DNA of 64,000 nucleotides, taken from an uncultured Acidobacteriia bacterium. GTDB taxonomy: Bacteria > Acidobacteriota > Terriglobia > Bryobacterales > Bryobacteraceae. The position numbers and the translations under genes are program-made. Position 1 is the first letter of the stretch. Every line of letters begins with the position of its first letter. This document shows positions 21,864 to 55,061 of this stretch, piece after piece. The stretch covers positions 1 through 64,000 of the forward strand of contig CAIUOG010000104.1 in assembly GCA_903900705.1 (NCBI GenBank). The letters are read 5' to 3'. The notes under the pieces are model-generated. The model was given only the letters and a program-made list of their open reading frames with translations. It searched no databases and had not been told where the DNA came from.

Positions 21864-22196
21864 TCAGGCTCTTTCGAGTTTAACGGCGGTGCCGTAGCAG
21901 AGAACTTCGGTCACGCCCTGCATGACTTCCGTGGCATCATAGCGAACGCCCACCACGGCGTCGGCGCCCACTTCGGCGGCATGAACCAGCATGCGCTGAA
22001 AGGCGTCTTCGCGGGTCTTTTCGCAGAGATTGGTAAACAGCGTAATATCGCCGCCCACCATGGTCTGCAGGCTGGCGCCGATGGTCCCGAAAACGGAGCG
22101 CGACCGGACGACAATCCCCTTGACGATCCCCATGCCGCGGACGACGCGGAACCCGGGAATCTCAAACGTGCTGCTGGTCATTTCATGCGAAATCAT
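21864..22196 (-). CDS. YbjQ-family (DUF74) putative heavy-metal-binding protein
   Basis: The 110-aa protein is a typical YbjQ/UPF0145 member: TSSTFEIPGFRVVRGMGIVKGIVVRSRS, then GGDITLFTNLCEKTREDAFQRMLVHAAEVGADAVVGVRYD and TEVLCYGTAVKLE. The family forms pentameric beta-rich rings, and a metal-binding role has been proposed. The start used overlaps the upstream glcF stop (ATGA 22193-22196); MTSSTFE five codons later is an alternative. It is the last gene of the glcE-glcF operon and is followed by the shared terminator. Confidence 0.88.
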   Translation of the reverse strand: MISHEMTSSTFEIPGFRVVRGMGIVKGIVVRSRSVFGTIGASLQTMVGGDITLFTNLCEKTREDAFQRMLVHAAEVGADAVVGVRYDATEVMQGVTEVLCYGTAVKLERA

Positions 22197-23518
22197 GCGT
22201 TCTCCCTGTAAGCTTCATCGAGCAGTTCCACGATATGTACGACGCGTTCTCCGCGTCCCCACTTCTTCACACCCGCCTGCAACTGGATCATACAGCCCGG
22301 GTTGGCCGTGGCGATGATCTCCGCTTTTGTGAGATTCACATTGGACATCTTCTTTTCGAGGATGCTCATGGACAGATCCGTATGCAGCACGTTATAAATG
22401 CCCGCGCTGCCACAGCACATATCGGCCAGCGGCATTTCCCGGAATTTCAGGCCGGGGATGGCGGCGAGAAGTTCGCGGGGGGCTTTGCGAATCTTCTGAC
22501 CGTGTGAAAGGTGGCACGAATCCTGATACGTAACGGTGGCGTCGATTGTTCCCAGGTCGCGATTCAGTTCGATGGATGCGAGGAACTCGGTCACATCCTT
22601 CATGAGGAGCTTAAACTGCTTCGCGGGCCCGGCGTACTTCGGATCGTGTTCGAGGAGTTCGTCGTATTCCTTGAGGGTGGAACCGCAGCCGGCGGCATTG
22701 GTGATGATGGCGTCAAAGCCGCCCTGGGCGATGGTTTCCTCAATGGCGTCGATGTTGCGGCGAGCCAGTTTGCGGGCTTCGTCCCGGATGCCCGCGTGAA
22801 CGTGGAGCGCGCCACAGCAGGTTTGGCTGACGGGAATCACAACCTCACAGCCGTTCTTCCGCAGCACGCGAACGGTGGCTTCATTCAGGCGCGCGAAGGA
22901 CACGTTCGCAATGCAGCCGGCCATGAAGGCGACGCGATACCGCCGCGTGCCCTCCGCGGGAAAGGTTTTGCCGATTTCGCGAAAAAAGAAGGGAATTTCG
23001 GCAGGGGGCGAAAGCGCCTCGCGCGCGGCGAGGGGACCGAGCAGGTTGACGAGTCCGGTGGCGCGGAGGACTTTCTGCAGACCGCTGACCTGATACATCC
23101 AGAGCGACGCGCCCGCTGCCGTGAGCAGCGCCGGGGATGGCAGCAGTTTGCGGAACACGAAATCGCGGACAGTCTTTGAGAGCCAGCCGCGTTGGGTGGT
23201 GTTCTCAATTTCTGAACGGGCGGCTTCGATGAGACGGCCGTATTGCACGCCGGAGGGGCAGGCGCTTTCGCAGCCCCGGCAGGCGAGGCAGAGATCGATG
23301 TGCTCCTTGTAGCTTTCGGTGATGGGCGCGCCGTTGGCCACCTGTACCATCTGGTAGACGCGGCCGCGCGGGGAATCCATCTCGACACCGAGTTCACGAT
23401 AGGTGGGGCAGGCGTTCAGACAGAGTCCGCAGTGCACGCAGCGATCCAGATCGACCGGCTGCGGCTTGTCATGAGCGGCCTCGGGCGGGAGTGGAACGGT
23501 GGGGCTAGAGGCGGCCAT
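22193..23518 (-). CDS. glcF: Glycolate oxidase iron-sulfur subunit GlcF
   Basis: The 441-aa protein has two ferredoxin-type [4Fe-4S] motifs, CVHCGLCLNACPTY and CLACRGCESACPSG, in the N-terminal 90 residues. Two CCG-domain repeats are represented by CCGALHVHAG and CCGSAGIYN. GlcF passes electrons from the flavin subunits to the quinone pool when glycolate is oxidised to glyoxylate. It overlaps glcE by 14 nt, as expected for a coupled pair. The flavoprotein GlcD is not in the window, so the enzyme must be completed elsewhere. Glycolate is a predicted product of the RuBisCO-like protein encoded about 5 kb upstream. Confidence 0.93.
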   Translation of the reverse strand: MAASSPTVPLPPEAAHDKPQPVDLDRCVHCGLCLNACPTYRELGVEMDSPRGRVYQMVQVANGAPITESYKEHIDLCLACRGCESACPSGVQYGRLIEAARSEIENTTQRGWLSKTVRDFVFRKLLPSPALLTAAGASLWMYQVSGLQKVLRATGLVNLLGPLAAREALSPPAEIPFFFREIGKTFPAEGTRRYRVAFMAGCIANVSFARLNEATVRVLRKNGCEVVIPVSQTCCGALHVHAGIRDEARKLARRNIDAIEETIAQGGFDAIITNAAGCGSTLKEYDELLEHDPKYAGPAKQFKLLMKDVTEFLASIELNRDLGTIDATVTYQDSCHLSHGQKIRKAPRELLAAIPGLKFREMPLADMCCGSAGIYNVLHTDLSMSILEKKMSNVNLTKAEIIATANPGCMIQLQAGVKKWGRGERVVHIVELLDEAYRENA

Positions 23519-24668
23519 AGAGACGTCCGTTGTTGAGAAGACCCGCGGGATCGAACATGTCTTTGATCCTTTTCATGATGGCAAAATCGCTGCCGGGTTC
23601 AGGCCAGAGAGTCAGACCGCGCTTTGCGGATTCGCCGGAGTATTCGACCAGGCTCTTCCAGCCGTTTTTGACACAGGCGAGTAGGAAGAGCGTGGCTTCG
23701 TCCGGACCGGGGAACCAGGCGCGGGTTACGCCGCTGGCGGCATGGGAGTGGCAGGGGACTTCGGTGGAGGCGAATACGGCGCCGACGTCCGCGAGGGTAG
23801 TGGAGACGCGCACGACGCAACCGTCTTTGCAGGTTTCCAGATGGCGCGGAGTCATGGTCTGAATCGCATTCCAGAACTCCTGTTCCCCGGCGCCGGCCAG
23901 AGCGCGGGCGACCCCAAGCTTTTCGGCTTCGCGGGTGGAACGCCCGATAACCTCCTGATTGCCCGCGAACTGCAGTGCAAGGAGGAAATTCGTTTCGGGC
24001 AGTTGCAAATGCGCGCAGAGCCGGGGATTGAGGATGTCGACAGCCACTGGCGTGAGCACGCCCTGGAGCGCGGCGTTGCGGGCTTCCACGGCGGACTTCG
24101 CATCCGGAAAACGGAACAGAAGCGTTCTGGCAACAGGGGGAACAGGTGTGAGCTTGAAATTCACGCTGGTGATGGCGGCGAGGGTGCCGAAGGAGCCAAT
24201 GAGCAGCTTCGCCATATCGAGACCGGCCACGTTTTTCACGACCATACCGCCGGATTGTACAAGTTTGCCATCGAGCGTGGCGAACTGCATGCCGATCACG
24301 AGATCACGCGCGGTGCCGTAGAGCCGTCTGCGGGAGCCGCTGATATTGGCGGCGATCATGCCGCCGACGGTGGCTTCGGAGGACCAGGGGCCATCGAGCG
24401 GAATCATCTGGCCATGGCGCGCGAGTTCGCGGGAGAGATCGGCGAAGCGCATGCCGGCCTGGACACTGACGGTGAGATCGCGGGGTTCGTACTGGATGAT
24501 TCGGTTGAGGTGAGTGGTGCTGATCTGCACGCTGGCGGGCGCGCGGGGGCCGCCCATCAGGTGTTTGGAGTTTGCGCCAAACACTTCCACGCTGCGGTTG
24601 GCACGACCGGCGTCAGCGAGTTGATCGCGCAGTTCTTCCGGCGTTGTGGGGTGGAGAGGTTCGAACAA
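23505..24668 (-). CDS. glcE: Glycolate oxidase FAD-binding subunit GlcE
   Basis: The 387-aa protein has a PCMH-type FAD-binding domain with SVEVFGANSKHLMGG, TVSVQAGMRFADLSRELARHGQMIPLDGPW, GGMIAANISGSRR and GGMVVKNVAGLDMAKLLIGSFGTL. These features match GlcE, the shorter flavin subunit paired with GlcD and GlcF. A TTG codon at 24668 is the only start near the family's N-terminus; GAGGG directly abuts it, an unusually tight spacing. The gene is first in a glcE-glcF-ybjQ operon and lies 109 nt downstream of the small exported-protein gene on the same strand. Confidence 0.9.
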   Translation of the reverse strand: MFEPLHPTTPEELRDQLADAGRANRSVEVFGANSKHLMGGPRAPASVQISTTHLNRIIQYEPRDLTVSVQAGMRFADLSRELARHGQMIPLDGPWSSEATVGGMIAANISGSRRRLYGTARDLVIGMQFATLDGKLVQSGGMVVKNVAGLDMAKLLIGSFGTLAAITSVNFKLTPVPPVARTLLFRFPDAKSAVEARNAALQGVLTPVAVDILNPRLCAHLQLPETNFLLALQFAGNQEVIGRSTREAEKLGVARALAGAGEQEFWNAIQTMTPRHLETCKDGCVVRVSTTLADVGAVFASTEVPCHSHAASGVTRAWFPGPDEATLFLLACVKNGWKSLVEYSGESAKRGLTLWPEPGSDFAIMKRIKDMFDPAGLLNNGRLYGRL

Positions 24669-25581: not shown

Positions 25582-26013
25582 CTAGTGGCTGGAACGGGCC
25601 CGTTCGAGGATCTTATCGGCAAGTTGGCGGGGCGCGTCCACATTCTCCAGCAGAACATGCCCGGTTGCGCCGGCATTTTCGATCCGCACGGAACCCACAT
25701 TGAAAACCCTGTTGCCGAGAGACTGAGTAACAACAACATCCTGCACGTAAGGCAGCATCAGGGTGCGCGTGGAGCGCGAAATAATTCCGGTCTCGATGCG
25801 GATGCGATCCCGCGTGAGAACCGTCAGGGTGGCCCTGATCTGAATCCATTGGTAAAGGGGAATGAAAAGCAGGAGCGTTACGGCAAGGGGAAGCCAGAAA
25901 GTATGCACCTTGTCGAACAGCAGAGCGCCCCACGCCAGAAGGGCGAGCGCGCTGATGGCTATGGCGCCGGCGCGCACGAACTTCACGGTGGGGCGAATTT
26001 CGATTTCTTCCAC
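25582..26013 (-). CDS. Bacterial PH-domain membrane protein (YdbS/YdbT-like)
   Basis: I use the GTG at 26013 (VEEIEIRPTVKFVRAGAI), 10 nt after the stop of the dehydrogenase gene, giving 143 aa. The longer frame to 26148 overlaps that gene and its extra residues look non-coding. Two adjacent hydrophobic helices (about residues 15-55) are followed by a bPH2 domain: LTRDRIRIETGIISRSTRTLMLPYVQDV and GNRVFNVGSVRIENAG. Such proteins are uncharacterised membrane-associated modules. Its position at the end of the apionate-type operon may be read-through, and a role in the pathway is not implied. Confidence 0.75.
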   Translation of the reverse strand: MEEIEIRPTVKFVRAGAIAISALALLAWGALLFDKVHTFWLPLAVTLLLFIPLYQWIQIRATLTVLTRDRIRIETGIISRSTRTLMLPYVQDVVVTQSLGNRVFNVGSVRIENAGATGHVLLENVDAPRQLADKILERARSSH

Positions 26014-26023
26014 GAGGGTTATG

Positions 26024-26866
26024 TTAGCGTACGGGCGGCGTCGTGATTTTGCGGATACTTTCGGCAATTGCCCCGGGTTCGAAAACGCTTTTCCAGTCTG
26101 GACGGAAGAGGCTCTGCTTCGCTTCATCGATGGCTTTGAGCGCGCCATCGGAGAAGGTTGCGCCTTCGAAGAGACGGAACACGATGCCCAATTCCACTTT
26201 GAGGTGGCCGAGCAGGAAATCGCGCGCGGCGGCCTCGGGCACGCCGAGCCTCACAGCTTCATCCATCGCCTCGCCCACGATGGTGAGACAGGTGCCGAGT
26301 ACGGTTTCGGAAAGGACCGGTTCGAGAATCGCCATTTGATCCGCGGTGCAGCGATGGGATGTCACGACCGGCGCATAAATGGCCCGTGCGATGTCTTCAC
26401 CGAGCGCATAGGCCTCTTCCGGCCCCTGCACGAGTGAGCAGACGATATTCTGGCGCGCGTGGACGCCGCCGAAGAAATCGAGCTGCGCGTTCTCTTCCGT
26501 TTCGCCGCCAAATACAGAGGGATGGCACGGGTGGGTCACGAAGTAAGTGAGATCGTCGCGCTGTGGGAGGTGGCCGGAAAGAGGCGCGGCGATATCGAGC
26601 GCGATGAGCATCATGCCCGGGCGGAAGTGGGCATCGAGCGAAGCGGTCACCGTGCCGATGCGGTTATCCGGCAGGGCGAGAATCACAGCGTCTGAGCCGG
26701 CGACAGCCTCCTCGGGGGAAACGGCGCTGAGGCCGCGCCGGGCCAGGGCGGCGCGGCCCTTATCGCTCACTTCGGCATAGCGCACGGAGTAGCTGGTTTT
26801 CAGCAGATTATCGGTGATGCGGCAGCCCATCTTGCCGCCGGCGCCGAGGAGTGCAATGGTTGTCAT
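26024..26866 (-). CDS. apnO: PGDH_C-type dehydrogenase, candidate D-apionate oxidoisomerase ApnO
   Basis: The 280-aa protein has an N-terminal Rossmann motif (IALLGAGGKMG, residues 4-14) with VILALPDN and a helical C-terminal domain of the phosphogluconate-dehydrogenase-C type, including HPCHPSVFGGET. In the literature (recalled, not searched), ApnO oxidises and rearranges D-apionate to 3-oxo-isoapionate with NAD. It belongs to this family and is encoded with a DUF1537 kinase and a RuBisCO-like protein. Here the start overlaps the kinase stop by ATGA (26863-26866), exactly that gene company. Assignment rests on family plus context. Another sugar-acid dehydrogenase is the alternative. Confidence 0.7.
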   Translation of the reverse strand: MTTIALLGAGGKMGCRITDNLLKTSYSVRYAEVSDKGRAALARRGLSAVSPEEAVAGSDAVILALPDNRIGTVTASLDAHFRPGMMLIALDIAAPLSGHLPQRDDLTYFVTHPCHPSVFGGETEENAQLDFFGGVHARQNIVCSLVQGPEEAYALGEDIARAIYAPVVTSHRCTADQMAILEPVLSETVLGTCLTIVGEAMDEAVRLGVPEAAARDFLLGHLKVELGIVFRLFEGATFSDGALKAIDEAKQSLFRPDWKSVFEPGAIAESIRKITTPPVR

Positions 26867-28164
26867 CTATTTCCTTTCTGAATTGCAAGTCCGGTCCGGA
26901 CCATTTCGAAGAACTCCGGCGGGCCCACCTGGCCGCCTTTCAGGACGAGTTCGAGACCGTCCACCAAAGGGTCTGACGAATAGCCGCGGCAGAGTGGCGC
27001 GCCGGGCGAAAGCAGCCCCGCGAACGTCAGGGCTTCCATGCCAAGCCGGCGGACGGCGTGGCTGGAGGTATCGCCACCGGCAACAAGGGCGCGGCGCACG
27101 CCGGAGCGCCGGATGAGTTCGAGCAAAAGCGAACCCAAATGGCGGCCCAATGCTTCGCCACGCAAGGCTCCGCCGCGAGGCGGGCCAGCGCAGTCGGCGG
27201 GGCCGAGCGCGCTATAAAGAACCACGTTGCGGCCTGCCGTGAGAGCCGCCGTGGCGGCGGGGAGCACATCGTCACCGGCCACCCGGAAGCCCGCATAGCC
27301 GTGTTCCATCGCCCAGCGGAGCTGCGCTTCGGTGGCTGGCGAGCAACTGCCGCTGATGACGATCAAGCGGTCCACCGGCGCAACCGGAGGGGGCAGAACG
27401 ACCGGTGGAAGCATACCGAGTGAGCGCCAGTGCAGCATGAGGGCATGGGTGAGGCCGGAACTACCGAGGCAGAACAGGGGAGCTGCCGTGCGATGGCTCC
27501 AGATCAGGCGACCAGCCTCTTCGATGGAAGGTTCGAGAAGTCCGTCAAACAGGACCGCGTCGGGAGAGGCGGCGAGGGCGTCTTCCAGAAAAGCTTCGCC
27601 CAGACCGCTTTCGAGCGCCACAATATCGACCAGGCCGATCCGCAGTGCCGTCTGTTTCGCGAGATGCAGCCGCAGATCCGCTTCGCCCATGGGGGTGACG
27701 GGATGGCGGCTCATGTTCGGGTGCCGGTCAATGCGATGGACCGCGCCGGCCGCGACGGCGAAGAGATTCCCGAACAAAACGTACCGCTTCAGATGCGGCG
27801 CAGCCATGGCGATGGGCACCCAGGGCGTGCCGAAAACGCGACGACCGATTTCCAGCGCGCGACCGATACTGCCGAATTCGGGCGAGCTATCGAAGGTGGA
27901 GCAAACCTTGTAATGGCAGAGGGGCGCACCGATGGCGCGAAGACTTTCGAGAACCGGCGGCAGGTGCGCGTCCATCCACTGCGGGCCGTGACTGCGGCTC
28001 TCGCCCGCAATGCCGATGGCCTGGCAGTCGGAGAAGCGGGCGAGCAGACGCGCATCCGGCGGATCAGGAAACAGCACGCTTTTGAGACCGCGGGAGGCGA
28101 CGGCTTCGAGCGCATCGGTGGAGCCGGTGAAATCGTCTCCATACCAGCTGTACAAAGGACTCAT
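26863..28164 (-). CDS. oiaK: DUF1537 four-carbon/branched acid-sugar kinase, candidate OiaK
   Basis: The start is ATG 28164 (MSPLYSWYGDDFTGSTDALEA), which overlaps the upstream stop as ATGA; the longer frame is shadow. The 433-aa protein has the N-terminal substrate domain (GDDFTGSTD) and the C-terminal nucleotide-binding domain (VAGGDTSSHAVRRLG and LVLKGGQVG). These define the YgbK/DUF1537 kinase family, which phosphorylates tetronates and, in apiose catabolism, 3-oxo-isoapionate. Sandwiched between an ApnO-like dehydrogenase and a RuBisCO-like protein, the OiaK role is the best fit. The product would be 3-oxo-isoapionate 4-phosphate, the substrate of the neighbour. No biochemical specificity can be read from sequence. 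Confidence 0.75.
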   Translation of the reverse strand: MSPLYSWYGDDFTGSTDALEAVASRGLKSVLFPDPPDARLLARFSDCQAIGIAGESRSHGPQWMDAHLPPVLESLRAIGAPLCHYKVCSTFDSSPEFGSIGRALEIGRRVFGTPWVPIAMAAPHLKRYVLFGNLFAVAAGAVHRIDRHPNMSRHPVTPMGEADLRLHLAKQTALRIGLVDIVALESGLGEAFLEDALAASPDAVLFDGLLEPSIEEAGRLIWSHRTAAPLFCLGSSGLTHALMLHWRSLGMLPPVVLPPPVAPVDRLIVISGSCSPATEAQLRWAMEHGYAGFRVAGDDVLPAATAALTAGRNVVLYSALGPADCAGPPRGGALRGEALGRHLGSLLLELIRRSGVRRALVAGGDTSSHAVRRLGMEALTFAGLLSPGAPLCRGYSSDPLVDGLELVLKGGQVGPPEFFEMVRTGLAIQKGNR

Positions 28165-29432
28165 GAGGCGAAGGTTTGCAGCGCTTCCCGCAGTTCCCGG
28201 TTCGACTGCGCGTACTGCCGCGGCGGCACTCCCGCAAGCGCGGCTTCCCAGGCCTGATGAATGGCGCGCACGCCCGCCGCGACGCCGCCGGGGTGCCCCA
28301 TGATGCCGCCACCGCAGGCAAAAATCAGGTCGGTCGATTGCAGTGCCGCCCAGGTTCCGGACGCCTGATTGACGGATTGTCCGGAGGAGAAGACGGGCAT
28401 GATTTCGCAGCCGCGGCCGGGCGCATCGAACATGGGCGTGAGGCATTCCCGGGCGGACGCAATCACCGAGGCATCGTCCTCACAGAACTTGTTGGCGAGA
28501 CCGTTGACGTGCATGTGGTCCACACCGGCCAGACGCCAGAGCTTCTGGTACGCGATGTAGCTGATCCCGATGGCAGGGGAGCGGCCATAAATGCCCCAGC
28601 CGTTGCGGTGGCAGTGAATGGCAAGCCGCGCATGGCGGCGCAGATGGACCAGCGCGGGGAGGCCGATGCTGTTGGCGCTGATCATGACGCAGGTGCCGCC
28701 GGCCGCTTCCACTGCATCGTGGCGCGCCAGCATTTCATCAATCTCGCCCGTGATGTTGCAGGCGTACATGACCTTGCGGCCGGTGCGATCGGCGTGACGA
28801 TTGATTACGTCCATGACGGCCGCGAGGCGCTCGGAAAAAGGGCAATGCGGACCATCGGCCTGGAGTTCGTCATCTTTGATGAAGTCGATGCCGCCGTCGG
28901 CGAGGGAATCGACCATGGCGGCGGTAGCGGCGGGGGAGAGGCCGACGCTCGGTTTGATGATGGTGCCGACGAGGGGACGGTGCGGCACACCGGTGAGTGC
29001 CCGCGTACCGGCCACACCGAATTGCGGGCCCTGATAGCGATCCAGAAACGAGGGCGGCAGTTTCAGATCGAGCAGTTTCAGGCCCGAAAACGGCTTCAGT
29101 TCAAACAGATTGCCGGCCACGGTGGCGACCACATTGGGCAGGGAATTCCCCATATTGGAGAGCGGCCAGGACAGTTCGACTTCGGCGCGACGCCAGACAT
29201 TGAGGCCCTTGGGCTTCCCCGCCCCGGGCAGCGAGGGCGCGTCCACCACGTCCAATGGCTGAATGCTTTCGACGCGCGCGGCATGGGCTTCGCGGAGTTC
29301 ATCGGTTTCGCCGGCGACGCGGATGAAGGTGCCGGTGGATTGCTCACCCGCCATGACCTGCGCGGCGTAGTCGAGTGGAAATGCGGTTTCAATCCAGTAG
29401 CGGGCGGAGAGACGCCCTGACGGCGAGGTCAT
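28161..29432 (-). CDS. oiaX: RuBisCO-like protein, candidate 3-oxo-isoapionate-4-phosphate transcarboxylase/hydrolase OiaX
   Basis: The 423-aa protein is a RuBisCO large-chain family member (form IV). GTIIKPSVGLSP corresponds to the first active-site Lys loop. DFIKDDELQ keeps the carbamylated Lys and the Asp and Glu metal ligands. HCHRNGWG supplies the active-site His, and GGGIMGHPGG forms the phosphate-binding end. It is not a carbon-fixing enzyme in this context. In D-apiose catabolism (recalled) OiaX splits 3-oxo-isoapionate 4-phosphate to 3-phosphoglycerate and glycolate. First gene of the coupled operon oiaX-oiaK-apnO, divergent from a GH127 gene with 45 nt between starts. Confidence 0.8.
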   Translation of the reverse strand: MTSPSGRLSARYWIETAFPLDYAAQVMAGEQSTGTFIRVAGETDELREAHAARVESIQPLDVVDAPSLPGAGKPKGLNVWRRAEVELSWPLSNMGNSLPNVVATVAGNLFELKPFSGLKLLDLKLPPSFLDRYQGPQFGVAGTRALTGVPHRPLVGTIIKPSVGLSPAATAAMVDSLADGGIDFIKDDELQADGPHCPFSERLAAVMDVINRHADRTGRKVMYACNITGEIDEMLARHDAVEAAGGTCVMISANSIGLPALVHLRRHARLAIHCHRNGWGIYGRSPAIGISYIAYQKLWRLAGVDHMHVNGLANKFCEDDASVIASARECLTPMFDAPGRGCEIMPVFSSGQSVNQASGTWAALQSTDLIFACGGGIMGHPGGVAAGVRAIHQAWEAALAGVPPRQYAQSNRELREALQTFAS

Positions 29433-29477
29433 CGGCGGCCATCATAACATCCGGGCGTGATAGCATCCGGCAGAGCG

Positions 29478-31226
29478 ATGCAAACAAGACGAACTTTCCT
29501 GCAAACAGCGCCGGGGCTTTCCGTGGCAGCCGCCCTGTTGCCAAAGCGGATGAGGGCCGCGGGAAGCGCGCCGCGCGAGCAACTGCGGGAGTTCGGGTAC
29601 GGCGCGGTACGCCTCACGGGGGGCCCGTTACAGCGCCAGTATGATCATCTGCATCAGCACTATCTGGGGCTCGACAACGACCGCATTCTGAAGGTCTACC
29701 GGCAGCGCGCCGGACTGCCCGCGCCGGGCGACGACATGGGCGGCTGGTATGACGCGGATGGGTTTGTGCCGGGCCATACCATTGGGCAGTATATCTCCGG
29801 TTTGGCGCGTTTTCACAAGGGCACGGGCGACCCGGCGGCGGCCGCGAAGGCCCGGGCACTGGCGGAAGGCTACATCGCGACGCTGGGCCCGAACGGTTAC
29901 CCGTACGCAAGCGAGAAAGGGGCGACGACCTGGCCCTGCTACATCCTCGATAAGTACGAGATCGGACTGATCGACGCCTATCGACTGGCGGGCGTTCAGG
30001 CCGCTAAAGACGCTTTGCCGCGGGTGATTCGCGGCGCCATCGGACATATTCCGGATCATACGTATGACCGCACGCCGGACAGCCCGAAGCAGGCGCCTTA
30101 TGACGAGCCTTACATCCTTTCTGAGAACCTCTTTCAGAGCTGGGAAGTGACCGGAGAACAACAGTTCTTCGACATGGCGAAGATGTATCTGCTGAATGCT
30201 GAATATTTCGAACCGCTGGCGCGCGGCGAAAACATTCTGCCCGGCAAGCATGCGTACAGCCATATGATCGCGCTGAGTTCGGCCGCGAAGGCTTATCTGG
30301 TGCTGGGGGATGAAAAGTATCTGGCGGCGATCCGGAATGCGTGGGACATGGTGGAGCAGACGCAGCAGTTTGCCTCCGGAGGGTCCGGCCCGAAGGAGGC
30401 GTTTGTGACGCCCCACGAGGGGAAACTGGGAGACGCCATCACCTCAACGCATGACCATTTCGAAACGCCGTGCGGCTGCTATGCGCAGGTGAAACTCGCG
30501 CGCTACCTGCTGCGGATCACCGGCGAGGGGCGTTATGGCGACGGCCTGGAGCGAGTGCTTTACAACACGGTACTGGGTGCCCGGGACCCCGATAACGACG
30601 GCAATTATTTCTATTACTCGAATTATCAGCCGGGGGCAAAGAAGGGCTACTATCACCGCAAGTGGTCGTGTTGTTCGGGTACGCTGGCGCAGGGGGTGGC
30701 GGATTATCCGGTGAATATTTACTTCCAATCGGCGAGCGCGCTGTATGTGAATTTATTCACACCTTCGGAAGTGCAATGGCAGACAGGGAACGTGCCGGTG
30801 AAACTGAGCCAGACCGGGGAGGGCGAAACACAGTTCTTCCGGGTGGAAACGGCAGCGCCGGTAACGTTCGAACTGCACGTCCGCGTGCCCGGCTGGGTGG
30901 AGGCCCCGCCGCGGGTCCGCGTGAACGGAAAGGCATTCGATGCCGACGCCGTGAAGGGCTTCCTGGTAGTGCGGAGGCACTGGAAATCGGGCGACCATGT
31001 GGAGGTGACGTTCCCTCGGAAGTGGCGACTGCAGGCGGTGGACGATAAGCATACGGACGTGGTGGCCATCATGCGAGGCCCGCTGATGTACGTGGAAACC
31101 GGTCAGCCCGTGGTTTCAGACAAGGTGCTGCCCGCTCTGCCGGCGGATCTCGATAAAGCCTCACTGACGCCGTTTCACGCGGTGAGGGAGCAGAGCTACA
31201 CAACCTACTTCCGGAAGCCCGCGTAA
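29478..31226 (+). CDS. GH127/DUF1680 glycoside hydrolase, Tat-exported
   Basis: The 582-aa protein starts at ATG 29478 with a Tat signal (QTRRTFLQTAPGLSVAAALL). The catalytic module is the GH127 (alpha/alpha)6 barrel. FETPCGCY and WSCCSGT supply the Glu and Cys residues that bind zinc in characterised beta-L-arabinofuranosidases of this family, with one Cys as nucleophile. A beta-rich C-terminal domain follows. GH127 includes beta-L-arabinofuranosidase and aceric-acid hydrolase of rhamnogalacturonan II. Divergent from the apionate-type operon and 63 nt before a TonB receptor, it probably releases sugars from plant polysaccharide in the periplasm. Confidence 0.88.
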   Translation: MQTRRTFLQTAPGLSVAAALLPKRMRAAGSAPREQLREFGYGAVRLTGGPLQRQYDHLHQHYLGLDNDRILKVYRQRAGLPAPGDDMGGWYDADGFVPGHTIGQYISGLARFHKGTGDPAAAAKARALAEGYIATLGPNGYPYASEKGATTWPCYILDKYEIGLIDAYRLAGVQAAKDALPRVIRGAIGHIPDHTYDRTPDSPKQAPYDEPYILSENLFQSWEVTGEQQFFDMAKMYLLNAEYFEPLARGENILPGKHAYSHMIALSSAAKAYLVLGDEKYLAAIRNAWDMVEQTQQFASGGSGPKEAFVTPHEGKLGDAITSTHDHFETPCGCYAQVKLARYLLRITGEGRYGDGLERVLYNTVLGARDPDNDGNYFYYSNYQPGAKKGYYHRKWSCCSGTLAQGVADYPVNIYFQSASALYVNLFTPSEVQWQTGNVPVKLSQTGEGETQFFRVETAAPVTFELHVRVPGWVEAPPRVRVNGKAFDADAVKGFLVVRRHWKSGDHVEVTFPRKWRLQAVDDKHTDVVAIMRGPLMYVETGQPVVSDKVLPALPADLDKASLTPFHAVREQSYTTYFRKPA

Positions 31227-31289
31227 AAGGTGATTCCAAATGGTAACGGCGGGGGAGCATGTTCCGCCTTGTCAGGGGTATACGTCACA

Positions 31290-34200
31290 ATGGGAATAAT
31301 GACAAAGACTGGCCTTCAGGCCTTACTCGCGATGGCTCTGGCCATGGTGTGTGGAAACCCTCTTTCCGCGCAGGTTTCAGCAGCCATATCGGGCAAAGTG
31401 AGCGACCCCACGGGTGGTCCCGTGGGCGCGGCGACAATCACGGTAAAAAGCGTGGAAAACGGCGCGGTGCGGGTGGTTGCATCGGACGACGCGGGAACAT
31501 TTCAGGTATCCTCGCTGCCGCTGGGACTGCAGGAAATCCGGGTGGAGAAGCAGGGCTTCAAGGCCGCGGTGCGGAATGGCATCAACCTGAAAGTTGGACA
31601 GGAAGCCGCCATTACGATCCAGCTGGAAGTGGGCGAGATCGCGCAGCAGGTGACGGTTTCCGAAGACGCGCCGGTGATTAACACGACGACGGCTTCGGTT
31701 TCCGGCGTGGTGGGGTCGCGGGAAGTGAAAGATCTGCCGCTCAATGGCCGCAGTTTCGACAACCTGATCACGCTGAATCCGGGCACCATCAGCTACGGGC
31801 TGAAGAGCGCCAACACGAGCACCAGCAATGGCAACACGTTCGCGGTGGCGGGGCGACGCCCGGCCGACAACATCGTGATGATGAACGGCATCGAATACAC
31901 AGGTTCCAGCCAGCTGGCCATCACGCCGGGCGGGGTGAGCGGTGAACTGCTGGGTATCGACGCGGTTCGTGAATTCAATGTGCTGACGGATGCGTATTCG
32001 GCGGAATACGGCAAGCGCGCCGGGGCGCAGGTCAGCGTGGTGACGCAATCGGGCACGAATTCAATTCACGGCAGCGTATTTGAGTTTCTGCGGAACAGCG
32101 CGCTGGACGCGCGGAATTTCTTCGATCAGGCGTTCGTGCCGCCGTTCCGGCGCAACCAGTTCGGTGGCGCACTGGGCGGGCCGCTGAAGAAAGACAAGCT
32201 GTTTCTGTTTGGCAATTATGAAGGTTTCCGGCAATCGCTCGCGCTGAGCAATGTGGCCGTGGTGCCGGATGCGCAGGCGCGGCTCGGCATCATCAACGGC
32301 GTGAAGGTGGCGAATCTGAATCCCGCGATGCTGAAGTTCATGTCGCTGTGGCCGGATGCCAACGGGCCTTCGCTGGGCGGGGGCACCGCGCTTTCGTACA
32401 ACAATCCACGACAGACCGTGCACGAAGACTTTGGCACGGCGCGCGCGGATTACACGGTGAGTGATCGTGATTCGGTATCCGCCGCCTACACGGTGGATGA
32501 GGGCACGGGGATTATCCCGCTGGCCGATCCGCTGTTCGGCTCCGCGCTGGGACTGACGAATCAGGTCGCGAGCGTGCAGGAAATCCATATCCTTTCGCCG
32601 CAGACGCTGAACACGCTGCGCGTTGGATTTTCGCGTGCGGCTTTCAATTTCGATTCCGACCCGCTCACGAACTTCCCGCCCGATCTGGCGTTCGTGGCGG
32701 GTGGAGGGCCGGGCGGCATCGTCATCGGTGGCGGCACCACGACGACCGGCGTTTCCGCGATTACGTCAGCCGGACCGAACAACGCCGCGAACGTGTGGAA
32801 CCGGCGCAATCTGTTCACGCTGTCTGACGGCGTGCAGATGACGCGCGGACGGCATCAGCTGAGCGCCGGCTTCTGGCTGCAGCGCGTGCAGGATAACGAG
32901 AATACGGCATCCCGCCGGCTGGGACAGGCCAGCTTCGCCAGCCTGCAGACGTTTCTGACCGGCATTTCGACGTCTTTCCAGGTAGTGCCTTCGCCCACGG
33001 AACTCGGCTGGCGCAGCGTGTTCGGCGCATGGTACGTGGAGGATTCAATCCGGCTGCGGAAGAATCTGACGCTGCAGATCGGCCTGCGCCATGAGTTCAC
33101 GAATGGCTGGAATGAAGTGGCGGGACGGGCCGCCAACTATGTGACGGATTCGTCCGGCGTGCTGCAGACGGCTCCGGTGGTGGGCAACGCCACATTCACG
33201 AAAAACAATGCGACAAAGCTTTTCGGACCGCGCGTTGGGCTCGCGTGGGATGTTTTCGGCACCGGTAAGACGTCTGTGCGCGCCGGCTACGGCACCTACT
33301 ACTCGCTGATTGACGACCTGAGCTTCCTGCTGAATTCCCTGCCCCCGTATAACTCGGCTGCGACCTATGCCAATGTCTCGCTGCCTTCGGTGATTCCGAT
33401 TGCGCCGGGCGTGCAGCCACCCGCCTCGTGCGGACCGGGCGTAGCCGCGCCCTGCAGCACCTTCGCGCCGCAGGGCATACAGGCGGATGCGAAGACGCCG
33501 GCGGTGCAGGAGTGGAATCTGCGGATCGAGCAGCAGATCACGGAGAATACGGCCCTGCGGGTGAGTTACGTGGGATCGTTCGGGTATCACGGACTGGTGA
33601 GCATCGATCCCAATACGGTGACGCCTCTGACTTGTGCGAACGCGGCAGGCTGCACGTCCGGCGGCACGGGCGCCACGCGCGGCCTTGTGGCACAGGGACA
33701 GCAGTACATTCCCGTCGCGGCCACACGGCCGAATCCGTATCTGGGCGCGGGATTCTTCTGGTATTCAGAAGGCAACAGCAGCTATAACTCGCTGCAGGTG
33801 GATGTGACGCGGCGTCTGACGCGCGGTCTGCAGGTGCGCGGCAACTTCACGTGGTCGAAGAATCTGGACATCAACTCGGCACTCACCGGCGCACAGGCCA
33901 ACAACCAGGCGCAGATGGTGATGGACCGGACGAACATCCGCCGGGACTGGGGTCTCTCCGCCCTGAACGTGACTGGCCAGGGCAGCATTTCCGCCCGCTA
34001 TGAATTGCCGTTCGGCAAGGGTCGCATAACGGGCGGCTGGCAACTGAACGGCATTGCGACCATGTTGAGCGGCTTCCCGTTTACGCCGCAGGATGGTTCG
34101 AACCGCTCAGGCGACGGGGATACGCGGAACCCGGACCGGCCGTCGCTGAACCCCGCATTCAGCGGCCCTGTGATTACGGGCAAGCCGAATCAGTGGTACA

Positions 34201-34496
34201 ACCCGAATGCGTTTGTGCTGCCGACTGCCGGGACCTTCGGCAACGTCGGTCGCGGCGTACTGACCGGACCCGGGCTCACCGATATCGACCTTTCGCTTTT
34301 CAAGAACATCCCGGTGAACGAGCGGATCAGCGTGCAGTTCCGCAGCGAGTTCTTCAACGTGATGAACCACGCGAATTTCGCATCGCCGAATCCGATTGTG
34401 TTTGCCAACGGGGTGGTGAGTTCGTCGGCGGGTCTGATTACCAGCACCGTGACGACGTCCCGGCAGATTCAGTTCGGGCTGAAGCTGATTTTCTGA
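31290..34496 (+). CDS. Oar-type TonB-dependent receptor with carboxypeptidase-regulatory domain
   Basis: I start at ATG 31290 (MGIMTKTGLQALLAMALAM); ATG 31299 is an equal alternative. About 1068 aa. A signal peptide ends near SAQ, then a carboxypeptidase-regulatory domain (AAISGKVSDPTGGPVGAATITV). A plug follows with NGRSFDNLITLNPG, VREFNVLTDAYSAEYGKRAGAQ and VVTQSGTNSIHGSVFEFLRN. A large beta-barrel ends in RQIQFGLKLIF. Acidobacteriota carry dozens of these, thought to import glycans or oligosaccharides. Location next to a GH127 enzyme and a sugar-acid operon suggests import of pectin fragments. The stop overlaps the next minus-strand gene's end by 28 nt. Confidence 0.93.
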   Translation: MGIMTKTGLQALLAMALAMVCGNPLSAQVSAAISGKVSDPTGGPVGAATITVKSVENGAVRVVASDDAGTFQVSSLPLGLQEIRVEKQGFKAAVRNGINLKVGQEAAITIQLEVGEIAQQVTVSEDAPVINTTTASVSGVVGSREVKDLPLNGRSFDNLITLNPGTISYGLKSANTSTSNGNTFAVAGRRPADNIVMMNGIEYTGSSQLAITPGGVSGELLGIDAVREFNVLTDAYSAEYGKRAGAQVSVVTQSGTNSIHGSVFEFLRNSALDARNFFDQAFVPPFRRNQFGGALGGPLKKDKLFLFGNYEGFRQSLALSNVAVVPDAQARLGIINGVKVANLNPAMLKFMSLWPDANGPSLGGGTALSYNNPRQTVHEDFGTARADYTVSDRDSVSAAYTVDEGTGIIPLADPLFGSALGLTNQVASVQEIHILSPQTLNTLRVGFSRAAFNFDSDPLTNFPPDLAFVAGGGPGGIVIGGGTTTTGVSAITSAGPNNAANVWNRRNLFTLSDGVQMTRGRHQLSAGFWLQRVQDNENTASRRLGQASFASLQTFLTGISTSFQVVPSPTELGWRSVFGAWYVEDSIRLRKNLTLQIGLRHEFTNGWNEVAGRAANYVTDSSGVLQTAPVVGNATFTKNNATKLFGPRVGLAWDVFGTGKTSVRAGYGTYYSLIDDLSFLLNSLPPYNSAATYANVSLPSVIPIAPGVQPPASCGPGVAAPCSTFAPQGIQADAKTPAVQEWNLRIEQQITENTALRVSYVGSFGYHGLVSIDPNTVTPLTCANAAGCTSGGTGATRGLVAQGQQYIPVAATRPNPYLGAGFFWYSEGNSSYNSLQVDVTRRLTRGLQVRGNFTWSKNLDINSALTGAQANNQAQMVMDRTNIRRDWGLSALNVTGQGSISARYELPFGKGRITGGWQLNGIATMLSGFPFTPQDGSNRSGDGDTRNPDRPSLNPAFSGPVITGKPNQWYNPNAFVLPTAGTFGNVGRGVLTGPGLTDIDLSLFKNIPVNERISVQFRSEFFNVMNHANFASPNPIVFANGVVSSSAGLITSTVTTSRQIQFGLKLIF

Positions 34497-45450: not shown

Positions 45451-46362
45451 TTACCAGATCTTGTGCCAGCCCTGGAACCAGGAAGCGAACTTTTCCAGAC
45501 TTTGAGAGGTTTCCGCCCCGAGGGGCACGGAAGTCTCGCCGGATTTCTGGCCGCGCACTGAAACCGCGCGCTTAATTCCCACAGGTGTCGGGAATTGTTC
45601 AATCCAGTCGATAAATTCGGTCAGGGAGGCATTCAGGGACGCAGTGCGTTCGTGGTCGCCCGCGGCGGCGGACTGGCAAAGCGCTACCAGTAGTTCGGGA
45701 ATCGCGGAGGCACAGCCGGAAAGAACGCCATCGGCGCCGGCGGCGAGGGCCTGCGCCGCAATCCGGTCATTTCCCGCAAAAAGCACAAAAGGCCGTTCGC
45801 GTTTCAGCGCGAGCAACTGTTCGAAATAGTCCCAATTCCCGCTGGAATCCTTGATGCCCGCAAATAACCCCGTGTCGAGCAAACGCCGGGCCGTTTCGAT
45901 GCCGATACCCGAAGTAAACTGCGGGATGTTGTAGAGCATGATGGGGAGGGAATTCCCGGCTTCCCTGGCGAATTCCCGGTAGAAGGTTTCTATCTCGGGC
46001 TGCGCATAGGGGAAGAAATAGGGCGGCATGAGCAGCAGTCCGTCCGCCCCGGCCTGCACGGCATCCGCCGCCACCTGGAGCGCCCCGGTCAGGCTGGTGT
46101 GGCCAACGCCAACAATCAGCGGGACCTTGCTGCGTTTGGCGCTGAGGTAGATGGCGCGCTGGCGATCTGAAAACGAATACTTGGCGAACTCGCCCGTGGA
46201 GCCCATCAGGCAGATACCGCTGACGCCGCCCTGAGCGAGGAAGTCGAGCAGGTCGAGAAGACCGGAGTAGTCGACTTCGAGGGTGCCTGGCAGGTTTGGC
46301 GTGACCGCCGCCGCGAAGACACCCGAGAGTTGAAGCTGCTTTGCCTGGCGTCCCAATCTCAT
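45451..46362 (-). CDS. Dihydrodipicolinate-synthase-family aldolase/lyase
   Basis: The 303-aa protein is a class I aldolase of the DapA/NAL type: GSTGEFAKYSFSDRQRAI (substrate loop), MLYNIPQFTSGIG with the catalytic Tyr and GIKDSSGNW with the Schiff-base Lys. Its start overlaps the DUF1080 stop (ATGA 46359-46362). It is probably not the housekeeping DapA, because it is coupled to an exported DUF1080 protein, a setting usual for sugar-acid or sialic-acid-like lyases. Substrate is unknown. Confidence 0.85.
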   Translation of the reverse strand: MRLGRQAKQLQLSGVFAAAVTPNLPGTLEVDYSGLLDLLDFLAQGGVSGICLMGSTGEFAKYSFSDRQRAIYLSAKRSKVPLIVGVGHTSLTGALQVAADAVQAGADGLLLMPPYFFPYAQPEIETFYREFAREAGNSLPIMLYNIPQFTSGIGIETARRLLDTGLFAGIKDSSGNWDYFEQLLALKRERPFVLFAGNDRIAAQALAAGADGVLSGCASAIPELLVALCQSAAAGDHERTASLNASLTEFIDWIEQFPTPVGIKRAVSVRGQKSGETSVPLGAETSQSLEKFASWFQGWHKIW

Positions 46363-47303
46363 TGCGCCTGAGGATGATAGAGCGGCGTAAGAATGATGTT
46401 CCGGAACGCGACCGGACCATGATCTCCCTGCAGTTCAAGCGAACCCGGCAGAGCTTCGAAGGGATCGAAGGCGATGGCCGTAAGACCTTCCACTTTCTGC
46501 TTCACGATGATGGGCTTGCCGTTCAGAGTGACGGAAACGTCGCGGCCGACGATGCGGATCTCGACGGTCTGCCACTCGCCCGCCTTCTTACTGGCATTCA
46601 GGAGCGGCTTGATGCGGCTGTACAGGGCGCCGTTGATATGCGATTCGACTGGTTTGCCGTAATCGTCCTGAATCTGGACTTCATAACGTCCGCGGAGACC
46701 GATGCCGCTGTTGCTCTTCTCGGCCACGTTGTATTCCAGGCGCAGGATGAAATTCCAGTACTTGCCGGTGGTGATCAGATTTTTCGCGTGTCCGGTGCTT
46801 TTCAGCTGGCCGTCCTCGACGGTCCAGCCGAGGTCCGTCGCGGAGCCATAACCGCTCCAGCCGTCCAGATTTTTGCCGTTGAAGAGCGTGATGGGTGTGG
46901 CGGAAAGCCAGGTTCCGTCGTCATGATCGCGGATGTTGGGAGCGCGATAGCCGGCGAAGACGACGGGGCCGCCGGGGCCGGTCATCAGACCATCGAGATG
47001 TCCGCCCGCGTACTTGACGAAGTATTCGCGTTTACCGGCCTTGTTCTCGAAGCTGAACATTAGTTCATGGTCCTGGATTTTCAGATCCCTGATCTCATTC
47101 AGATCGCCACCGGGAAAGCCAATGAATTTGCCCTTCATCTCCGGAGTACCGACGCCGGAAACTTCGAGCCACCAGGCCTTATCGGTGACGCCTTTGAGAA
47201 TCTGCAGGTCCCAGCGCCCGTTGAAGTCGACATCGGCGGCGTGAGCCGCGAGGGAGCAGGCGAAGAGGGAAAGTGAAGCGGTGAGTAGTCGGAAGCGAGG
47301 CAT
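46359..47303 (-). CDS. Exported DUF1080 protein
   Basis: The 314-aa protein has a Sec signal (LLTASLSLFACSLAAHA). Residues about 135-314 carry the DUF1080 (3-keto-disaccharide hydrolase-like) beta-sandwich: LFNGKNLDGWSGYG, WTVEDGQLKSTG, FILRLEYNV, SGIGLRGRYEVQIQDDYG, GALYSRI and GEWQTVEIRIVG. DUF1080 proteins occur widely in Planctomycetota and Acidobacteriota and act on extracellular sugars or polymers. The N-terminal 130 residues are beta-rich and may be a separate binding domain. Coupled with the DapA-type lyase gene that follows. Confidence 0.85.
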   Translation of the reverse strand: MPRFRLLTASLSLFACSLAAHAADVDFNGRWDLQILKGVTDKAWWLEVSGVGTPEMKGKFIGFPGGDLNEIRDLKIQDHELMFSFENKAGKREYFVKYAGGHLDGLMTGPGGPVVFAGYRAPNIRDHDDGTWLSATPITLFNGKNLDGWSGYGSATDLGWTVEDGQLKSTGHAKNLITTGKYWNFILRLEYNVAEKSNSGIGLRGRYEVQIQDDYGKPVESHINGALYSRIKPLLNASKKAGEWQTVEIRIVGRDVSVTLNGKPIIVKQKVEGLTAIAFDPFEALPGSLELQGDHGPVAFRNIILTPLYHPQAQ

Positions 47304-52726: not shown

Positions 52727-54460
52727 ATGTTCCAGGTTCAGCCTTCCCAGGTTCAGCGGTCGCCGCAAGTTCATGACGTGGTGGTCATCGGTTCAGGCGC
52801 CGGCGGCGGCACAACGGTCAAAGTTCTGACAGAGATGGGGATCAACGTGACCCTTATCGAAGCGGGTCCCATGCTCAATCCGCAGAAGGACTTCAAAGAG
52901 CATATGTGGCCGTGGGAAGTGGACCACCGCGGCGTGGGTCCGAACGCGGAAAACTACTTCGGCAAGGACATTTATCCTTTTGGTTATTTCCTTGCGCCGA
53001 ATGGCTACTGGAACATTCCCGGAGAGCCCTTCACCGTGGCGCAGGGCAGTGAGTTCAAGTGGTTCCGCTCCCGCATCATGGGAGGCCGCACGAACCACTA
53101 CGGCCGCATTTCGCTGCGGTTTGCCGATTACGATTTCAAACCGTACCAGTTCGACGGTCTGGGGTACGACTGGCCCATTACTTACGACGAAATGGCGCCT
53201 TACTACGACAAGGCTGAGGAGTTTATCGGCGTGACCGGCACACGCGAGGGCCTGCGGTCCGCACCGGACGGAAAGTTTCTGCCGCCCATCCCGCCGCGGG
53301 TGCATGAAACGCTGGTGATGCATGCGGGGAAGAAGCTGAATATTCCCGTAATTCCGTCGCGCATGGCGATGCTGACCAAGTCGATCCATGGTCGCGCCGC
53401 GTGCCACTACTGCGGCCAGTGCGGACGCGGCTGCCGGACCGCTTCGGCTTTCACGTCCAGCCAGGCGATGATTTTCCCGGCCATGAAGACTGGTCATCTG
53501 AACATCATCAGCAATGCGATGGCGCGCGAGCTGCTGGTGGACGATCAGGGCAAGGTGAAGGCCGTTTCGTACGTCGACAAAGCGACCCGCACGGAGAAGC
53601 AGATTCGCTGCCGCGCCGTGGTGGTGGCGGCGAGCGCCTGCGAATCGGCGCGACTGCTGCTGAACTCGAAATCGACGAAATTCCCGGGCGGAATCGCGAA
53701 CAGTTCGGGCCAGGTGGGACGTAACCTGACGGACACGGTGGGCTACGCGCTGAGCGGCCACGTTCCGGCGCTCGAAGGCCTGCCGCGCCACAACTGCGAC
53801 GGCATTGGCGGGATGCACGTTTACACGCCGTGGTGGGAACTGGAAAAGAAGAACAAGCTGTTCCCGCGCGGCTATCACATTGAAATCGGCGGTGGTTTCG
53901 GGATGCCGCAGATCGGGTCTTTCCGGGGTGTGGCGGCGCAGGCGGAAGGCTACGGCTCGAAGCTCAAAGACGCGATCCGGCAGTCTTACGGCACGCAGAT
54001 CAGTTTCTCGGGCCGCGGCGAAATGATCCCGAACGAGAATTCGTACTGCGAGATCGACCCCACCACGGTGGACCAGTGGGGCATTCCGGTGCTGAAGTTC
54101 CACTTCAAATGGCAGGAATACGAAACCAATATGGTGAAGCATATGCACCAGACCTTCACCGATCTGATTCACGCCATGGGCGGCACCGTCACAAGCAAGG
54201 CGTTCCCTGCCAACCCGCTGAACGCCATCTCGACGGGCGGCGAAATCATCCACGAGGCGGGAACGGTTCGGATGGGCGCCGACCCGAAGTCGAGTGTGCT
54301 GAACAAGTGGTCGCAGGCACACGAAGTGAATAATCTGTTCGTGTCGGATGCGGCGCCGTTCAACGGCAACCCGGATAAGAATGTAACGCTGACGATTGTG
54401 GCCAACGCCTGGCGCGCGGCCGAGCATCTGGCCGAAGAAATGAAGAAGGGGAATATCTAA
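52727..54460 (+). CDS. GMC-family flavoprotein oxidoreductase
   Basis: The 577-aa protein begins with the FAD dinucleotide site VVVIGSGAGGGTTVKVL (about residues 18-34) and a GMC-type core: IMGGRTNHYGRISLRF, HYCGQCGRGCRT (Cys-rich), VVVAASACESARLLLNS and the C-terminal LFVSDAAPFNGNPDKNVTLTIVANAWRAAEHL, where GMC enzymes carry the active-site residues. It has no signal of its own and is followed after 1 nt by a Tat-exported subunit-3-like protein, so it may be exported as a complex. Sugar or alcohol oxidation to the membrane quinone or cytochrome pool is the expected reaction. A cytochrome partner is missing here. Confidence 0.9.
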   Translation: MFQVQPSQVQRSPQVHDVVVIGSGAGGGTTVKVLTEMGINVTLIEAGPMLNPQKDFKEHMWPWEVDHRGVGPNAENYFGKDIYPFGYFLAPNGYWNIPGEPFTVAQGSEFKWFRSRIMGGRTNHYGRISLRFADYDFKPYQFDGLGYDWPITYDEMAPYYDKAEEFIGVTGTREGLRSAPDGKFLPPIPPRVHETLVMHAGKKLNIPVIPSRMAMLTKSIHGRAACHYCGQCGRGCRTASAFTSSQAMIFPAMKTGHLNIISNAMARELLVDDQGKVKAVSYVDKATRTEKQIRCRAVVVAASACESARLLLNSKSTKFPGGIANSSGQVGRNLTDTVGYALSGHVPALEGLPRHNCDGIGGMHVYTPWWELEKKNKLFPRGYHIEIGGGFGMPQIGSFRGVAAQAEGYGSKLKDAIRQSYGTQISFSGRGEMIPNENSYCEIDPTTVDQWGIPVLKFHFKWQEYETNMVKHMHQTFTDLIHAMGGTVTSKAFPANPLNAISTGGEIIHEAGTVRMGADPKSSVLNKWSQAHEVNNLFVSDAAPFNGNPDKNVTLTIVANAWRAAEHLAEEMKKGNI

Positions 54461-54461
54461 G

Positions 54462-55061
54462 ATGGAAGACGTTTCTCGACGCGACCTTTTCAAAATCGTC
54501 GGCAGTTCCATGGTGCTGACGACAGCGGGTTCGGGAGTCCTCTCCCCCGCCCTCGCGCAGCATGTCCATATGGCGATGGCGGAGGCGAAAAGCCTCAGCG
54601 GAGGCCCGAATTACGCTCCGAAGTGTTTCACCCGCCACAACTTCCAGACACTGAAGAAGCTTTCCGACATTGTGATTCCAGGCTCCCTCGACGCGGGTGC
54701 GCCGGAATATATCGACCTTCTGAGCAGCCATAATGCGGAACTGGCGGCGATCTTCAACGGCGGTTTTGCGTGGCTGGACGACTACATGCAGAAGACGTAC
54801 GCGGCGGACTTCCTGACTGCAAAACCGGAGCAGCAGACCGAATTGCTGGACAAACTCGCTTACCGGGCGAAGCATACGCCCGAAACCGCCGGCGGACAGA
54901 CCTTCTGGACGTGGGTTCGCAACATGGTGGTGGACGTGTACTACACCAGCCCGGTGGGCGTAAAGGATATCGGATTCATGGGCAACGGTGCCATGGCGGA
55001 GTTCAGCGTACCGAAGGAAGCGGTGGAATACGCGTTGAAGCGCAGTCCGTTCGCCGGGTAA
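54462..55061 (+). CDS. Gluconate 2-dehydrogenase subunit 3-family protein, Tat-exported
   Basis: The 199-aa protein begins MEDVSRRDLFKIVGSSMVL, a twin-arginine signal that can carry the GMC partner across the membrane by hitchhiking. The body (YAPKCFTRHNFQTLKKLSDIVIPGSLDAGAPEYIDLL and FLTAKPEQQTELLDKLAYR) matches the gluconate 2-dehydrogenase gamma-subunit family. It starts one base after the GMC stop. The two together are the catalytic and small subunits of an FAD-linked periplasmic dehydrogenase. Substrate unknown. Confidence 0.88.
   Translation: MEDVSRRDLFKIVGSSMVLTTAGSGVLSPALAQHVHMAMAEAKSLSGGPNYAPKCFTRHNFQTLKKLSDIVIPGSLDAGAPEYIDLLSSHNAELAAIFNGGFAWLDDYMQKTYAADFLTAKPEQQTELLDKLAYRAKHTPETAGGQTFWTWVRNMVVDVYYTSPVGVKDIGFMGNGAMAEFSVPKEAVEYALKRSPFAG

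Follow-up and report, generated by a model that had tools for sequence, protein, structure and literature searches.

We analysed the first 64,000 nucleotides (positions 1 to 64,000 of the forward strand; hereafter the window) of contig CAIUOG010000104.1 from an uncultured Acidobacteriia bacterium (assembly GCA_903900705.1), in which genes for a RuBisCO-like protein (RLP), a sugar acid kinase and a putative D-apionate oxidoisomerase (ApnO) form a compact operon. Rhamnogalacturonan II (RG-II) has two branched sugars, apiose and aceric acid. Our tentative reading, which we place a little short of probable, is that this locus is the branched-sugar-acid hub of a pectin-using acidobacterium, wherein the RLP and kinase would be supplied by two feeders, ApnO for apionate and a racemase-like protein for aceric acid, both encoded in the window genome. 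Judged from sequence comparisons, the RLP-kinase pair probably serves aceric acid as well as apionate.

The operon lies on the reverse strand. The RLP gene (28161-29432, 423 amino acids), whose product belongs to the OiaX/OiaT superfamily and falls outside the OiaX group, is followed by a gene for an OiaK-like four-carbon acid sugar kinase with SBD_N and NBD_C domains (26863-28164, 433 amino acids) and by one for an ApnO-like protein of family PF16896 (26024-26866, 280 amino acids), with a 4-base ATGA overlap at each of the two joints. A longer open reading frame for the kinase (to 28446) was rejected as a 5′ over-extension. Divergent from the operon, on the forward strand, are a gene for a GH127/GH146-superfamily hydrolase of a divergent subfamily (PF07944; 29457-31226) and, beginning 3 bases past it, one for an Oar-type TonB-dependent receptor (31230-34496), which has a carboxypeptidase-regulatory domain, a plug domain scoring below cut-off and a barrel domain. 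This architecture agrees with the original prediction, as does the assignment of the three operon proteins to families of the D-apionate route. The domain matches are too strong for chance, with RuBisCO_large at E 4e-67, the two kinase domains at E 9e-47 and 2e-25, PGDH_C at E 9e-60 and GH127 at E 3e-50, and the genome contains no PF00016 match apart from the RLP. Against the OiaK model NF042436 the kinase scores 467.4 bits, under the cut-off of 700, and the runner-up is a 3-oxo-tetronate kinase model at 148. The ApnO-like protein draws only weak dehydrogenase matches from NCBIfam, with no ApnO model among the results. In a midpoint-rooted tree confined to this family, it sits in a supported set of nine sequences that includes two from loci with apionolactonase-like or apiose-dehydrogenase-like genes. 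The names used here for these latter genes, annotated respectively as 'hypothetical protein' and as Gfo/Idh/MocA oxidoreductase, are based on gene neighbourhoods rather than a family model.

The original prediction named the RLP OiaX and credited it with the products of OiaT, and neither the name nor the pairing stands. OiaX is reportedly a decarboxylase, and OiaT a transcarboxylase/hydrolase giving 3-phosphoglycerate and glycolate, in work attributed to Carter and others in 2018. If the window RLP were an OiaX-like decarboxylase, a tetrulose phosphate would pass via isomerases into the pentose phosphate pathway and no glycolate would be formed, an alternative that we regard as unlikely. OiaX (NF042437) is indeed the best NCBIfam model for the RLP, but the score of 447.2 bits is below the cut-off of 700, and among the 60 of 366 plasmid matches listed those called OiaX share 41.5-44.4% identity with it, whereas closer plasmid RLPs (up to 71.5%) do not bear that name. 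The form III RuBisCO model scores 244 bits, and the methionine-salvage models NF007095 and TIGR03332 score 171 of 409 and 129.1 of 513.6 bits; the RLP is not of the methionine-salvage type. The four sequences of the OiaX group (L034, L161 and L162, named OiaX, and L160, annotated rbcL) form a group of their own with 100/100 support, and the window RLP lies elsewhere in the tree. At the sites equivalent to E60, N123 and H327 of RuBisCO (spinach numbering, placed via RuBisCO motifs and by aligning form III-like sequences), these four have D, A and Q, whereas the window RLP and all 25 other members of its clade, described below, have E, N and H, identities kept in 61, 53 and 62 of 62 other RLPs. 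K175, K201, D203, E204, H294, R295 and K334 are kept, and K177 is replaced by Ser in the window and clade RLPs. Genes resembling triose-phosphate isomerase and RpiB directly follow the kinase gene in two of the four OiaX-group loci, with no tblastn match in any other locus searched. Together, these residues and isomerase genes make an OiaT-like transcarboxylase/hydrolase reaction more likely for the window RLP than OiaX-type decarboxylation. The solved RLP 3nwr (434 bits) was tried as an anchor for this comparison; it has Thr in place of Asn at the N123 site and is not decisive.

Evidence for a second feeder comes from the relatives of the RLP. These were drawn from a scan of one genome per species (84,980 species), loci were taken for the best 80 of 550 relatives, and neighbouring genes were detected with tblastn and mapped onto an RLP tree. 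Short sequences (L048 and L124) and duplicates (L058, L089 and L103, of L040, L042 and L043) were left out of the tree, as were L012, L017, L018, L024, L037 and L039 (long or outgroup) in a second and third version. The window RLP belongs to a clade of 26 sequences, with SH-aLRT support of 99 and 98 in quick trees and 98 in a more careful one. Among the stretches fetched around the 25 other members, some of them short contigs, 21 carry a GH127 gene, 22 a major facilitator superfamily (MFS) transporter gene and 21 a gene for a racemase-like protein of PF01177, and none carries ApnO. When the search is extended to the entire genome or plasmid, 24 of the 25 have the racemase, and it was not found in the remaining one, a metagenome-assembled genome (L075). 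Over all loci, the racemase and GH127 are associated (Fisher test, 20/7/4/65, p 3e-11, kinship ignored), and the window is the only one of 24 GH127-linked loci with a linked ApnO. Many clade loci also have rhamnosidases, fucosidases, beta-galactosidases or GH140-like genes, and one has GH28 too, as expected for RG-II. In support of the pectin setting proposed earlier, the operon's relatives occur in apiosidase (GH140) and RG-II-like loci. Genome-wide searches for ApnO, the racemase and the aceric acid hydrolase family used 50 of the best 80 RLP genomes, and ApnO is present in 26 of the 27 genomes whose RLPs lie outside the clade.

A similar picture is obtained within the phylum. Across 297 acidobacterial genomes, an RLP at least 65% identical to that of the window (a line chosen after the matches were seen) occurs in seven, and the genomes with racemase matches at E <= 1e-60 are these same seven and no others, the window genome among them. 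The next genome (G235, RLP 60%) has no racemase match at E <= 1e-6. Among the matches listed, two weaker racemase matches (31-33%) fall in genomes without an RLP match, and 18 genomes of family f2 without an RLP match also lack the racemase; eight of these 18 belong to genus g5, as do three genomes with both genes. Neither ApnO nor the apionolactonase-like gene was found in the six racemase-type genomes of family f2. The window genome encodes its racemase (54% identity) on contig C120 and its MFS transporter (55%, with four more distant paralogues) on contig C100, so linkage to the hub is not an explanation for their presence; no genes linked to either were recognised on those contigs. The window genome's PF01177 protein has a predicted fold like that of glutamate and aspartate racemases (pLDDT 94), but its family has only one invariant cysteine (16 of 16 sequences). 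A two-base racemase would need two. For the MFS partner, the best model is a galactonate transporter (217 bits, cut-off 395).

The connection to aceric acid rests on two Chloroflexota relatives, L099 and L134, whose GH127 proteins score 1019.5 and 996.5 bits against the NCBIfam aceric acid hydrolase model (cut-off 950), a threshold passed by no other of the 50 RLP genomes. The gene order in L134 is GH127, RLP, kinase and racemase, with GH127 directly before the RLP. In L099 it is GH127, racemase, three further genes, RLP and kinase, and GH127 and the RLP are 4 kb apart. Both stretches are without ApnO, which occurs elsewhere in the L099 genome and was not found in that of L134. The RLPs of both loci are 57-61% identical to that of the window and lie outside its clade. 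Weaker matches, under the cut-off at 510-687 bits, are present in the L080 and L078 genomes and once more in that of L134. The RLP of L119, 80% identical to that of L099, sits with ApnO and with apionolactonase-like and dehydrogenase-like genes, and it thus seems that the same type of enzyme serves either feeder. In the bacteroidote Rufibacter tibetensis, a plasmid carries an RLP-kinase-racemase-symporter run among pectin genes and, elsewhere, a GH127 gene whose product is 54% identical to that of L134. The genome of L056, whose RLP is the sister of the window RLP, encodes the closest of the GH127 relatives compared (59.5%), and 33 bases lie between the end of its gene and a racemase gene.

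A chemical rationale for a shared hub can be proposed. In the apionate branch, ApnO would make 3-oxo-isoapionate from the D-apionate derived from the apiose of RG-II, the kinase would phosphorylate it, and the RLP would cleave the product to 3-phosphoglycerate and glycolate, provided that its reaction is OiaT-like, as seems more likely than OiaX-like. Aceric acid is 3-C-carboxy-5-deoxy-L-xylose (PMC8218411). It would be released by a GH127-superfamily enzyme and imported by the sugar-acid-type MFS transporter, and the cofactor-free, single-cysteine PF01177 protein encoded on another contig would convert the aldose to the ketose HOCH2-CO-C(OH)(COOH)-CHOH-CH3. 3-Oxo-isoapionate is HOCH2-CO-C(OH)(COOH)-CH2OH. 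When this structure is compared with the 2-ketose of aceric acid, leaving stereochemistry aside, the two differ by a single methyl group, present in the latter. Formation of 3-oxo-isoapionate from apionate is an oxidation and needs the cofactor of ApnO, whereas aceric acid requires isomerisation only, and a cofactor-free protein therefore fits in the place of ApnO. The kinase and RLP would then act likewise on the aceric acid ketose to give 3-phosphoglycerate and lactate (or CO2 and a 5-deoxypentulose phosphate). It is quite possible, while still falling short of probable, that an aceric acid pathway of this kind (GH127-type release, import, isomerisation by PF01177, an OiaK-type kinase and carbon-carbon cleavage by an RLP) exists in at least four phyla, and that one RLP serves both RG-II branched sugars in genomes with both feeders.

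Several observations weigh against this reading. The bootstrap value of 90 for the 26-sequence clade in the careful tree had not settled, and a tree-aware pairs test of the racemase-GH127 association gave on average 2.0 pairs for and 0.6 against, too few to reach 0.05. Strong racemase matches also occur in two of the 27 genomes with other RLPs (L076 and L091), with weak ones (38-45%) in four more, and a racemase homologue (48%) is present in a rhizobium that lacks an annotated RLP within 7 kb. Of the catalytic residues checked, none differs between racemase-type and ApnO-type RLPs; eight other alignment columns do separate the two, and a loop-6 Cys (KFCE) was discarded as a marker of the racemase type since Cys is also found in 22 of 62 other sequences. 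We know of no precedent for sugar isomerisation by the Asp/Glu racemase fold. In the window genome itself, the racemase, the MFS gene and the hub are on separate contigs, and it is ApnO that stands in the operon. The aceric acid hydrolase family is absent at E <= 1e-150 from all 18 named clade genomes, and the window GH127 scores 75.9 bits against its model (NF049879; cut-off 950), with a predicted fold nearest to GH146 arabinofuranosidases and BT_1003 at rank 11, so that action of this enzyme on aceric acid, as the original prediction allowed, is unproven. Finally, ApnO occurs elsewhere in seven of the 18 named clade genomes; it adjoins an apionolactonase-like gene in two (L176 and L179) of the three inspected and not in the third (L177). 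Its absence, which holds as a rule for the fetched clade stretches, thus fails genome-wide.

Alternatively, the locus may be a plain D-apionate module that uses only apiose-derived apionate, with GH127 as an arabinofuranosidase of a pectin locus and the racemase a coincidence. We consider this a real possibility, if on the improbable side. The position of ApnO inside the operon and the GH146-like fold just mentioned fit it, as do relatives (L046, L076 and L078) in which ApnO accompanies GH140, apionolactonase-like or apiose-dehydrogenase-like genes. It does not account for a clade in which nearly every other member has the racemase and none has a linked ApnO, nor for the occurrence of close RLPs and racemases in the same seven of 297 genomes. 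Moreover, the earlier description of the module as complete is not supported: the window genome has no match to the apionolactonase-like gene, and its one PF13204 match, at 69.6 bits, is above the Pfam cut-off but weak, compared with 401 for a GH140-type relative. In tblastn searches of window positions 16001-45000 with references from relatives, apiose-dehydrogenase-like (sought there only), apionolactonase-like and GH140 genes were all absent.

The reading of one hub with two feeders accommodates genomes that carry both feeder genes. In six of the seven ApnO-bearing clade genomes, all proteobacteria and mostly sphingomonads, ApnO shares a contig with the racemase, at a distance of 22-34 kb. 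Outside the clade, three loci from Acidobacteriota (L065, L068 and L080) have ApnO, racemase and MFS genes together with the RLP-kinase hub, and in G330 the racemase, MFS and ApnO genes are consecutive. We read all of these, and the window genome, as two-feeder genomes.

It may also be asked whether the GH127/racemase-type clade uses some other pectin or hemicellulose acid, or whether the PF01177 protein is an epimerase, a decarboxylase or a racemase of a product. The PF01177 fold includes racemases and arylmalonate decarboxylase, its single invariant cysteine would suit such a role, and window-type GH127 proteins have no assigned substrate. Nevertheless, aceric-acid-hydrolase-family genes stand in the same run in the two Chloroflexota loci, and apiose and aceric acid are the two branched sugars of RG-II, and we judge this alternative distinctly unlikely. 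Within the window-type GH127 proteins, E336, C339, C405 and C406 are invariant (14 of 14), with an E-x-x-C spacing one residue longer than in solved members. The E-x-C positions of solved GH127/GH146 members belong to a Cys3-Glu zinc site (PMC10850190).

Among known systems, the OiaT-type D-apionate pathway is like the window in its three gene families and RLP-kinase-ApnO order, and relatives of the operon stand beside a ribose-type transporter, a Gfo/Idh dehydrogenase and the apionolactonase-like gene. The window differs in that a search of its genome revealed no apionolactonase-like gene, GH127 and the Oar receptor take the place of a transporter, and the RLP belongs to the racemase-associated clade. 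The OiaX-type pathway shares the kinase and ApnO families; here the differences are the low RLP identity (to named OiaX among the matches listed), the three RuBisCO-site residues and the lack of isomerase genes in the stretch searched. With RG-II degradation by Bacteroides, and its aceric acid hydrolase BT1003, the window shares the GH127 superfamily, represented in the runs of the two Chloroflexota relatives by members over the cut-off, whereas the window enzyme is of a divergent subfamily and far below it. The racemase-like protein shares its fold and one conserved cysteine with the Asp/Glu racemase superfamily, but has only that one invariant cysteine and has a sugar acid kinase and an RLP as gene neighbours. 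In searches of the open-licence literature, we found no description of a microbial route for aceric acid use, no paper combining any two of aceric acid, RuBisCO-like proteins, four-carbon acid sugar kinases and apionate, and, among the matches listed, no relevant title on OiaX, OiaT or apionate. If the proposed pathway is correct, it would provide a testable enzyme set for aceric acid, among the oddest of plant cell-wall sugars, a new reaction for the RuBisCO-like family and a type of chemistry not previously ascribed, to our knowledge, to the Asp/Glu racemase fold. It would also explain why one RLP-kinase pair recurs in whole pectin loci, namely as a common exit for both RG-II branched sugars.

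A further proposal of the original prediction was that nearby glcEF genes oxidise the glycolate produced by the operon. Genes for a GlcF-like iron-sulphur protein (22193-23518) and a GlcE-like FAD protein (23505-24668) are present on the reverse strand, with scores of 322.5 of 333 and 181.6 of 284 bits, both under the NCBIfam cut-offs. The glcE gene starts 1.4 kb past ApnO on the same strand, and in Sphingomonas sp. JC676 a GlcF gene (462 bits, cut-off 333) and a GlcD/E-like gene (734 of 897 bits against glcD) adjoin ApnO. However, two genes separate glcE from ApnO, the link to the operon is not conserved (no GlcF match of at least 35% at any of the 97 loci searched near the RLPs of relatives, a number that includes three duplicates), and GlcD was not found in the window, where glcE alone is touched by the glcD model; the genome's best GlcD sits on a different contig and below its cut-off. 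We regard the proposed role of these genes as the glycolate oxidase of the operon as unlikely.

Other relatives show the RLP in further settings. In seven loci (L107, L116, L118, L121, L133, L038 and L159) a short-chain dehydrogenase gene replaces the linked ApnO, with the kinase nearby where it was sought, which suggests a third kind of feeder. Two haloarchaeal loci (L035 and L101) combine the RLP-kinase pair with an ApnO-like gene; the L035 locus is plasmid-borne and accompanied by a TRAP transporter. In G104 (loci L047 and L158), an acidobacterial genome, one of two ApnO-like genes is in the RLP operon and the second is in a cluster for sugar transport, alongside apionolactonase-like and dehydrogenase-like genes. 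A Streptomyces plasmid (L039) carries alcohol dehydrogenase, RLP, kinase and GH78 genes in an RG-II-like island, on a stretch without ApnO or racemase, and LutA/LutB-like lactate-oxidation genes lie beside an apiose-type RLP locus in a Cyclobacteriaceae metagenome-assembled genome (L112, 15026-17651). Near the hub in L041, L075, L085 and L090 is a gene that by eye resembles a CaiB/BaiF CoA-transferase gene; L040 has a MaoC-type dehydratase (Pfam) gene, and L041 has a similar open reading frame. No oxidoreductase recurring in at least five of the 25 clade loci was recognised among gene clusters judged by eye and annotated in part.

In the window itself, a gene for a bPH_2 domain protein (25585-26013, reverse strand) lies directly 3′ of ApnO and, adjoining it, may be part of the same transcript. 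The divergent RLP and GH127 starts are 24 bases apart (29433-29456), and it follows that either the promoters overlap coding sequence or the true GH127 start is downstream (ATG at 29478). Two sugar-oxidation sets lie farther along, one with a DHDPS-family gene and a 3-keto-disaccharide hydrolase gene (45454-47303), and the other with genes for a GMC oxidoreductase and gluconate-dehydrogenase subunit 3 (52727-55058).

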